Source of the DNA: Leifsonia shinshuensis
GTDB lineage: Bacteria; Actinomycetota; Actinomycetes; Actinomycetales; Microbacteriaceae
Assembly: GCF_022606355.1 (NCBI RefSeq)
Contig: NZ_JAHHZQ010000006.1
Location: 1 to 64,000, forward strand
Direction of reading: 5' to 3'
DNA length: 64,000 nucleotides
Part shown: piece by piece, positions 13,676 to 54,521 of the stretch
How positions within the stretch are numbered: position 1 is the first letter of the stretch
How the letters are laid out: every line of letters begins with the position of its first letter
The notes under the pieces: model-generated
The model's database searches: none
Told to the model about the DNA's origin: nothing
The model's input: only the letters and a program-made list of their open reading frames with translations
Made by a program: the position numbers and the translations under genes

Positions 13676-13728
13676 ATTCGTCACGAATCCCGACCTTCGT
13701 GCCACGAGACTCGGGATTCGTGACGAAT
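13676..13728. repeat. Intergenic palindrome element, family A copy 1
   Basis: Contains the 13-base palindrome-like unit ATTCGTCACGAAT (13676-13688), a central TTCGTGCCACGA (13696-13707) and ATTCGTGACGAAT (13716-13728). Related elements occur at 48301-48361 and 54469-54521. It lies between the amidase stop and the peptidase start, outside any gene. The arms CTCGGGATTCGTGACGAAT-like and ATTCGTCACGAATCCCGA-like can pair over the whole element. Confidence 0.75.
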
Positions 13729-20090: not shown

Positions 20091-20147
20091 CGAGGGGCAC
20101 GCAAACGCCCCCAAAAGCGCGTTTTGGGGGCGTCTACGTGCCCTTCG
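20091..20147. repeat. Long hairpin element, family B copy 1
   Basis: CGAGGGGCACG...ACGCCCCCAAAA pairs with TTTTGGGGGCGT...CGTGCCCTTCG around a GCGCG loop. The stem is about 24 bp with two mismatches and one G-T pair. It lies between the GH3 gene and the SDR gene. It has the same layout and orientation as copies at 27050-27106 and 28038-28094. No U-run follows on either strand, so a plain terminator is unlikely. Confidence 0.85.
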
Positions 20148-27049: not shown

Positions 27050-27106
27050 CGAAGGGCACCCAAACGCCCCAAAAACCGTGTTTTAGGGGCGTTTGGGTGC
27101 CCCTCG
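27050..27106. repeat. Long hairpin element, family B copy 2
   Basis: A perfect 17-bp arm pair, GGGCACCCAAACGCCCC (27054-27070) and its complement at 27086-27102, is extended inward by AAAAC/GTTTT and outward by CGA/TCG. It lies 21 bases after the LacI stop and 60 bases before the endonuclease gene. It is in the same orientation as the copy that ends that gene. Confidence 0.9.
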
Positions 27107-27165
27107 GCGGGTGGGGTTGTGGATAACTCGGGAGGGCGGGCGGCTCTTGTGCGAGGGTGGCGGGC

Positions 27166-28074
27166 ATGCCACGACAGCGCAGCGCCCTTCCTGCCGGACT
27201 CCGGGACTCCTCGTTCACGACTGCCGAGGCGACCGCGCTCGGCGTCGGCAGCAAGCGTCTGCGCGGCGGCGACCTCGTGACGCCGATCCGGGGCACCCGG
27301 CTCACCCGGGAGGCCGACGGGCTGATCGCACGGTGCCGCGCCTACGCGCTGCACCGTCGCGTCGACTTCGCCTTCAGCCACGCGACCGCCGCGAGCCTGT
27401 ACGGCGTCCCGTTGCCGCGCACGGACGACCGCATCCACGTGAGCGTGCGTGCGCCGGGCCGGGCGCCGGACATCCGGGGTCACGTCGGGCACAAGCTCTC
27501 GCGCTGGGAGACGCGCACCGTCCACGGTCTGCCGGTCACGACGCCGGAACAGACCTGGCTCGACCTGGCCCAGCTGTTCCCGCGCGATGCGCTCGTGGTC
27601 GCGGGCGACTTCTTCGTCGGCGGCGATGCACCGCTCACCGATCGGATTGCGTTGGCCCGCGCGATCGCTGCGTCGCCGGGGCGTCGAGGCATCGGCCGGG
27701 CGCGGGAGGCGATCCACTCGATCCGCCACGGAGCGGAGTCGCCGGGAGAGTCACGGCTGCGTCTGCTCCTGGCTGATGCCGGCCTGCCGGTTCCGCTGCT
27801 CAACCATGAGCTGCGGGATGCGTCGGGAGGATTCGTCGCACGTATCGACCTCGCCTATGAGCACGCACGGGTCGCGCTCGAGTACGAGGGCGACATCCAC
27901 CGCGTCGACCGCCGGGTCTGGCAGAAGGACATCCGCCGCCGCGAGCGCGTCGAGGATCTCGGTTGGCGCATGGTCCGCGTCACCGCGGACGACCTCCACA
28001 CTCCGGCAGTGCTCGTCCACCGCGTCCGAAAGCTCATCGAGGGGCACGCAAACGCCCCTACACGCGGGTTTTAG
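27166..28074 (+). CDS. AbiEi-like HTH plus DUF559/Vsr-like endonuclease
   Basis: Predicted nuclease of 302 residues. The N-terminus (about residues 15-60: FTTAEATALGVGSKRLRGGDLVTPIRGTRL, seen in parts) resembles the AbiEi-type winged helix. The C-terminus (about residues 210-290) is a DUF559/Vsr-like PD-(D/E)xK domain: ARIDLAYEHARVALEYEGD, then HRVDRRVWQKDIRRRERVEDLGWR and VRVTADDL. ATG 27166 follows GAGGG; GTG 27157 is possible. The gene is bracketed by family B hairpins, and its last ten codons and stop lie inside the downstream copy, so the repeat has supplied its C-terminus. Function is unknown. Confidence 0.82.
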   Translation: MPRQRSALPAGLRDSSFTTAEATALGVGSKRLRGGDLVTPIRGTRLTREADGLIARCRAYALHRRVDFAFSHATAASLYGVPLPRTDDRIHVSVRAPGRAPDIRGHVGHKLSRWETRTVHGLPVTTPEQTWLDLAQLFPRDALVVAGDFFVGGDAPLTDRIALARAIAASPGRRGIGRAREAIHSIRHGAESPGESRLRLLLADAGLPVPLLNHELRDASGGFVARIDLAYEHARVALEYEGDIHRVDRRVWQKDIRRRERVEDLGWRMVRVTADDLHTPAVLVHRVRKLIEGHANAPTRGF

Positions 28075-28094
28075 GGGCGCTTGCGTGCCCCTCG
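28038..28094. repeat. Long hairpin element, family B copy 3
   Basis: Arm GGGGCACGCAAACGCCCCTA (28041-28060) pairs with 28072-28091 over 20 bp with one mismatch, extended by CGA/TCG on the outside. It covers the 3' end of the endonuclease gene, whose stop is at 28072-28074. GC-rich direct GGAGG runs follow at 28100-28125. Confidence 0.9.
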
Positions 28095-38418: not shown

Positions 38419-38450
38419 GGAATTCTTTGACACATGTGTCAAAGAATTCC
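38419..38450. promoter_or_regulatory. Perfect 32-bp palindrome in amidohydrolase promoter
   Basis: GGAATTCTTTGACACA is followed directly by its exact reverse complement. A TTGACA at 38386-38391 and AACACT near 38410 form a possible promoter whose start point would lie within the palindrome, so a bound repressor would block initiation. Half-site TGACAC recurs at 43208-43229. It ends 21 bases before the GTG start at 38472. Confidence 0.8.
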
Positions 38451-48300: not shown

Positions 48301-48361
48301 TCACGAATCTCGAGATTCGTGACGAATGTGCCGATTCGTGCCACGAATCTCGAGATTCGTG
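48301..48361. repeat. Intergenic palindrome element, family A copy 2
   Basis: Two perfect palindromes: 22 bases at 48301-48322 (arm TCACGAATCTC) and 20 bases at 48342-48361 (arm CACGAATCTC), linked by CGAATGTGCCGATTCGTGC-like sequence. It lies 12 bases after the PAP2 stop and 36 bases before the end of the convergent PhzF gene, where it could serve both transcripts as a stem-loop. Confidence 0.85.
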
Positions 48362-48396
48362 ACGAATGTCAGTGACCCTCCGAGGTACGGCACCGC

Positions 48397-54468: not shown

Positions 54469-54521
54469 ATTCGTCACGAATCGCGACATTCGTGCCACGA
54501 ATCGCGACATTCGTCACGAAT
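54469..54521. repeat. Intergenic palindrome element, family A copy 3
   Basis: Three regularly spaced units: ATTCGTCACGAAT (54469-54481), ATTCGTGCCACGAAT (54488-54502) and ATTCGTCACGAAT (54509-54521), separated by CGCGAC. It lies between convergent stops (54459 and 54528), as copy 2 does. Confidence 0.88.

Follow-up and report, generated by a model that had tools for sequence, protein, structure and literature searches.

The window analysed here, a stretch of 64,000 nucleotides from Leifsonia shinshuensis, holds a gene for a nuclease of 302 residues with one palindrome of ~57 bp on either side. The question raised by this locus is whether nuclease and palindrome merely happen to be neighbours or belong together functionally, as the initial annotation, made from the sequence without database searches, had proposed by analogy to REP elements and their dedicated transposases.

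The palindrome-bracketed gene

The long hairpins initially described at three places in the window (Table 1) are real according to the inverted-repeat list, shuffled sequences and genome-wide pattern counts. They constitute entries 2 to 4 among the 32 inverted repeats of the window, and the pattern GGGCACN{20,46}GTGCCC has three window matches versus 0.48 expected, with three or more reached by 1 of 100 shuffles. These palindromes, designated type P1, have constant outer arms (CGARGGGCAC / GTGCCCYTCG) and occur with two inner-stem variants, A (GTTGTTGTC-like) and B (GCAAACGCCCC-like). Among 23 P1 copies chosen by outer arms and spacing alone, each of the inner positions 11-27 is Watson-Crick paired in 15 to 23 copies, and more than one kind of Watson-Crick pair occurs at 15 of these 17 positions. 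As the inner positions pair with varied Watson-Crick pairs, the symmetry of P1 is maintained through two-sided change.

The nuclease reading frame, which has an alternative GTG start at 27157, indeed terminates within the downstream hairpin; while this overlap stands, the hairpin encodes the last 11 sense codons and the stop codon, not ten codons and the stop as first counted. Between the two palindromes lies this one gene and no partner gene, and, as noted before, no nuclease gene adjoins the third P1 copy. A second palindrome type, S4, with three copies in the window, had been missed. The window also contains a perfect 16-bp inverted repeat with zero spacer (38419-38450), which is unlike both the P1 and the S4 family.

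Table 1. Positions in the window of the nuclease gene, its parts and the palindromes
Feature	Position	Strand	Remark
Upstream palindrome, type P1, inner variant B	27050..27106	.	27-nt arms, 93% complementary
Palindrome-bracketed nuclease gene, 302 aa	27166..28074	+	ORF
AbiEi-like part, residues 4-187	27175..27726	+	probable DNA binding
Vsr / EDxHD-type nuclease part, residues 190-296	27733..28053	+	
Downstream palindrome, type P1, inner variant B	28038..28094	.	inverted-repeat search, pattern match
Dispersed P1 palindrome without nuclease gene	20091..20147	.	inverted-repeat search, pattern match
Dispersed S4 palindrome (type flanking paralog L033)	13676..13728	.	
Dispersed S4 palindrome	48315..48367	.	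in gap of convergent genes
Dispersed S4 palindrome	54469..54521	.	in gap of convergent genes

An AbiEi-like part joined to a Vsr-type nuclease

The sequence scores of the window protein are weak, with a sub-threshold profile match to PF18741 (28.1 bits, cut-off 38.2), 15.3 bits against DUF559 (cut-off 20.6) and an E-value of 3.5e-10 against the PADLOC AbiEi model. It is the fold comparison that decides the domain assignment and proves the original AbiEi-HTH/DUF559 (Vsr-like) call right: a part with AbiEi-like fold, which is the probable DNA-binding part, is followed by a nuclease of the Vsr / I-Bth0305I type, the homing enzyme I-Bth0305I having the nearest nuclease fold. In the family of the window protein, the Vsr / EDxHD fold comes with conserved acidic and histidine residues, particular ones of which are presumably catalytic, and the nuclease residues are invariant. 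As judged from dN/dS ratios of 0.10-0.34 over nine pairs of relatives (0.13 for the window gene versus L050), the nuclease protein is under purifying selection.

AbiEi proteins are described as binding inverted repeats, through which they autoregulate (PMC7319586), while I-Bth0305I is reported to act as a dimer, its target spanning nearly 60 bp (PMC3943268); a palindrome of ~57 bp would suit both modes of binding. Unlike I-Bth0305I and the Vsr, MTES_1575 and DUF559 proteins, the palindrome nuclease is not intronic, possesses an AbiEi-like part and is flanked by palindromes. Unlike in AbiEi antitoxins of type IV toxin-antitoxin systems, where the nucleotidyltransferase toxin AbiEii is encoded next to AbiEi in the operon, the AbiEi-like part is here fused to a nuclease, and the window cassette consists of one gene. 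For a DUF559 protein, VsrA of Caulobacter, a role in mismatch repair has been put forward (PMC12907096).

Bracketing by palindromes within and beyond the genus

The 28 genomes of the genus yielded 104 homolog matches, spread over 27 genomes, of which 103 were scored, the omitted one being the second piece of the broken nuclease gene in genome G016. With a strong palindrome defined by a fixed threshold (stem score 13 or more), and with many of the loci orthologous, so that the counts are not independent, an upstream palindrome is present at 63 loci and a downstream one at 61; both occur at 47 loci and at least one at 77. The corresponding numbers are 15, 22, 2 and hence 35 for 232 control ORFs with a minimum length of 600 nt, taken from a 400-kb region of the window's genome that includes paralog L033. 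Enrichment beside these genes, which had been suggested as a check, is therefore found, and the gene is not commonly hairpin-free: just 26 loci have no palindrome at the threshold, some truncated genes and contig ends among them. A local similarity score between upstream and downstream flank, calculated without requirement for a palindrome, exceeded 22.5, the 99th percentile of 1500 random gene-to-gene pairings, at 76 of the 103 loci as compared to 3 of the 232 control genes.

Beyond the genus, nuclease homologs are present in 188 of 297 sampled genomes of the order, representing 62 of 95 genera. At 29 loci from 14 other genera, which were chosen as the best-scoring ones and are thus not a random draw, palindromes stand on both sides in 12 cases and on neither in 2, and the flanks match in 16. 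A 240-kb stretch of a genome from another family of the order (G258) contains two nuclease genes, each bracketed by its own palindrome, with one more dispersed copy of each palindrome; in 160 kb of genome G031, one additional near-copy of the nuclease palindrome was observed. The window locus is one case of a broader pattern.

Given the autoregulation by AbiEi proteins through inverted repeats (PMC7319586) and the AbiEi-like part of the nuclease, the palindromes might be operators, with the dispersed copies as regulon or decoys that are not spread by the nuclease. The upstream palindrome, where found, ends 28-181 bp ahead of the matched protein start, as would fit an operator. However, a palindrome of the same type is located at the 3' end too, where it overlaps the stop codon in 42 of 64 scorable loci, and the invariant nuclease residues would be left unexplained. 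The stop codon within the hairpin is not essential, since in the relative L053 it falls 10 bp short of the palindrome.

Each nuclease clade has its own palindrome

The window genome encodes three nuclease genes, that of the window and its paralogs L032 and L033, with three unlike palindromes. Among those of the first 72 loci that had a palindrome, none of 55 pairs of same-genome paralogs share it. On the other hand, homologs at the same site in different genomes have similar palindromes in 20 of 20 pairs above 75% protein identity, a share that is 0.79 at 65-75% (24 pairs), 0.27 at 60-65% (66 pairs) and 0.18 or less per band under 60% identity, compared to 0.09 or less in all identity bands for homologs at different sites.

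The nuclease might also serve defence or addiction, with the palindromes as its self-marks or as harmless parking sites, in line with the resemblance to AbiEi models of the defence library and with the invariant nuclease residues. Such a role is nevertheless very improbable in view of the single gene without partner between the window palindromes, the many nuclease genes at shared chromosomal sites and the drift of the palindromes along with the protein.

Dispersed copies track the cognate gene

In the 4.78-Mb window genome, a stricter P1 pattern matches 116 times on the forward strand and 120 times on the reverse strand, as compared to 0 and 2 times for the control pattern; among the matches listed, those of P1 mostly mark the same places on the two strands. 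Across the 28 genomes, which are related and whose counts are hence not independent, P1 reaches 18 or more matches per strand in six genomes and 7 or fewer in the other 22. The P1-rich genomes G000, G007, G010, G016, G020 and G023 are those with gene-adjacent P1, the flanking copies of G010 and G023 having one or two outer-arm mismatches and the broken nuclease gene of G016 having a P1 match on one side; the exact probability of this co-occurrence, computed by hand and ignoring relatedness, is 2.7e-6. As forecast from the gene flanks, type S1 is found in two genomes, G002 and G017 alone (three places in G002, two of them adjoining the gene, and one in G017), and type S2 likewise in G019 and G021 alone.

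S4 is more widespread, with matches in 22 of the 28 genomes. S4 half-sites adjoin a nuclease gene or remnant in 17 of these 22, a count that includes the truncated gene L308 (G017), where one side alone has a complete S4 palindrome, and excludes L059 (G024), where one half-site is accompanied by a complete palindrome of a different type. The S4-positive genomes G008, G019, G021, G024 and G025 possess a gene of the same clade, the palindrome of which has become GATTTG-type by drift. No S4 half-site was found beside the nuclease genes sampled from the six S4-negative genomes, and the tree, outside of which L310 to L313 lie, contains no S4-clade gene from them; L313, a locus of G004 in this S4-negative set, has a palindrome that is S4-like in part and escapes the S4 pattern. 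For certain nucleases, dispersed copies are apparently scarce or lacking: S1 has only the few places given above, and in a 400-kb stretch of G000 none of the 19 palindromes scored as strong was classed as L032-type.

Cumulatively, that the nuclease gene is associated with the palindrome, and specifically with that of its cognate type, can be regarded as practically certain. With this, the functional link between gene and repeat proposed by the initial annotation has gained support, and neither of the two outcomes that it had named as speaking against the link, lack of enrichment and common hairpin-free genes, was observed.

The number of S4 matches is highest in G022, with 349 per strand, and several S4 units are located upstream of its nuclease gene L304. 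In G016 (C34; joined stretches L195-L208, 201143-201392), overlapping S4 palindromes follow each other at ~40-bp steps as a tandem array 3' of the S4 nuclease gene. The inner arms of P1 and S4 apparently derive from a small set of variants and are often unlike within one palindrome, as if arms had been exchanged.

Placement and turnover of dispersed palindromes

According to gene calls by our own codon-usage script, all 14 dispersed P1 and S4 copies in 464 kb of G000 are located outside predicted genes, 11 of them in gaps between convergent genes, mostly <50 bp from stop codons, and the remaining three between one gene start and one gene end. Of all gaps, 20% are convergent, corresponding to 31% of the total gap length, and against these shares the binomial p is 3.8e-6 and 3.1e-4, respectively. 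No promoter is expected in convergent gaps, which, together with the 3' palindromes and the invariant nuclease residues, makes the interpretation of the palindromes as operators unlikely.

Placement in convergent gaps close to stop codons, strong stems and compensatory change would all be expected of palindromes selected as two-way transcription terminators, which would then merely insulate the nuclease gene. Such terminators account neither for palindromes on both sides of the nuclease that are each clade's own nor for genome-wide copies that track the nuclease gene; moreover, no run of T follows any of the three window P1 copies, and palindrome presence differs between close species. Insulation by terminators as the whole explanation is thus very unlikely.

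The turnover is evident from genomes G000 and G016, which are collinear over ~265 kb with most long blocks at 91-94% identity. Of seven P1 sites in this synteny, two are common, four are restricted to G000 (one at 103378) and one to G016, and at one of the common sites the inner arms differ on both sides. Palindromes are consequently gained or lost between close species; a clean target-site duplication was found at none of the polymorphic palindrome sites inspected.

A probable repeat-and-enzyme partnership

The explanation that we favour, and hold to be somewhat more probable than not, is a partnership of repeat and enzyme which resembles REP/RAYT in its working and relies on an unrelated AbiEi-Vsr enzyme. 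The two flanking palindromes would be the cognate sites of the nuclease and at the same time the ends of the cassette. The nuclease, probably as a dimer, would recognise the outer arms, be they in duplex, cruciform or single-strand hairpin form, and nick or cut at these arms or at a target, whereupon repair would deposit palindrome copies, mostly in convergent-gene gaps, where they would be tolerated and may act as two-way terminators. That the protein acts on the palindrome at all is probable; that it also propagates the palindrome has, in our estimation, an even chance of being true.

REP elements are described as dispersed extragenic palindromes with a dedicated flanked gene and repeat types tied to genes (PMC8049555; PMC3116915; PMC3733652), where the enzyme is single-copy and vertically inherited and the palindromes are non-autonomous (PMC8049555; PMC3116915). 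The nuclease-palindrome system shares with REP/REPIN-RAYT systems (REPtrons) the dispersed extragenic palindromes, the dedicated palindrome-flanked gene, which is single-copy and mostly vertically inherited, and the tie of repeat types to particular genes. In contrast, the enzyme is an AbiEi-Vsr nuclease, while RAYT is an HUH/Y1 protein. A Y1 transposase (PF01797, E<=0.001) was detected in 0 of 11 genomes, but in 5 of 14 control genomes. As the HUH enzyme by which REP/RAYT is defined is absent from these 11 genomes, the system is not a member of REP/RAYT; for the same reason, mobilisation of the palindromes by an IS200/RAYT enzyme was rejected. The analogy to a REP element with dedicated enzyme is nonetheless sustained by the clade-specific palindromes, the copies matching the cognate gene and this absence of Y1. 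Like MITEs and insertion sequences with terminal inverted repeats, the palindromes occur as a gene-bearing copy and many short copies, but each cassette end is a full hairpin rather than half of an inverted pair, and the polymorphic sites inspected have no clean target duplication.

Other candidates were dismissed. Comparison to known RNA families gave only sub-threshold microRNA models, taken as chance matches to long hairpins; integron attC sites were rejected on general criteria; and cargo of plasmids or phages was discarded with 5 of 72,556 plasmid and 1 of 50,697 phage records matching, all below 60% identity. The titles and abstract openings of the best-ranked matches in one open-access library contained no link of DUF559, MTES_1575 or Vsr-like proteins to extragenic palindromes, and the annotation names of the best 120 of 280 homologs indicated no palindrome-related role.

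With respect to significance, the linking of homologs to cognate palindromes provides a widespread family with a testable role and explains palindromes that can number in the hundreds in a single genome. It suggests that HUH transposases are not the only enzymes around which a REP-like partnership can arise. Some REP families have been described without a dedicated transposase (PMC3733652), for which the AbiEi-Vsr nuclease is a candidate enzyme type. It may equally well be true as not that the large actinobacterial family annotated as hypothetical, DUF559 or very-short-patch-repair proteins provides the enzymes for a REP-like class that would be the second of its kind and of independent origin. 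In such a class, each AbiEi-Vsr nuclease would recognise and propagate its own ~57-bp palindrome, and co-evolution of recognition code and palindrome would lead to parallel palindrome populations per genome, here P1 and S4, each with its enzyme. The natural pairs of protein and palindrome would also be a resource for deciphering the DNA recognition code.

Chromosomal sites and movement of the cassette

The nuclease gene itself rarely moves, as close homologs usually share flanking genes: among 163 homolog pairs of at least 60% identity, flanking genes are shared on both sides in 124, on one in 5 and on neither in 34. The flank of one core site, beside L053, is present in 28 of 28 genomes, and 21 of these have a member of the nuclease family there, with palindromes differing by clade. 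The window's group (G000, G007, G010 and G023) occupies a different position, the LacI-TetR site, while its nearest relatives are at the core site. By the branching order of the tree, this group, represented by L031, is the sister of L053 inside the core-site clade. With 1.5 kb extra on each side included, L031 and L053 align only at 1432-2363 and 1430-2360, respectively, that is from inside the first palindrome to shortly before the second. The sister placement and the ends of this homology imply that the cassette has relocated at least once with the palindromes as limits. The clearly common part of the L031 and L053 palindromes is the 10-bp outer arm only (score 11.0).

The closest nuclease fold being that of the homing enzyme I-Bth0305I and one core site having family members in 21 of 28 genomes, a free-standing homing-type endonuclease might be considered, which would cut the cassette-free core locus to have the cassette copied in by repair, with dispersed palindromes as by-products. 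As the cassette is located between two entire palindromes with no split target, and as dispersed copies at unrelated sites are not accounted for, homing is extremely improbable as compared to the partnership with the palindrome as cognate site.

Comparison with empty sites, which the initial annotation had recommended, revealed cassette-free sites, namely the LacI-TetR site of G006 and G016 and the core site of G000. A clean insertion site was not obtained, additional indels being present at the polymorphic sites as well as at both sites of the cassette. At the G000 core site, the A-type cassette has been lost and the outer arm of the right palindrome apparently remains, so that this empty site resembles a deletion and not a pristine target; the core site of G016 holds the broken nuclease gene. 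A-type palindromes are still present in the genomes of both G000 and G016.

A peculiar arrangement is displayed by L151 at the LacI-TetR site of G020, where a B-type P1 palindrome is split by ~0.9 kb of other DNA with a ~10-bp stretch of the arm at both ends; here, either foreign DNA was inserted into one palindrome or the DNA between two palindromes was replaced.
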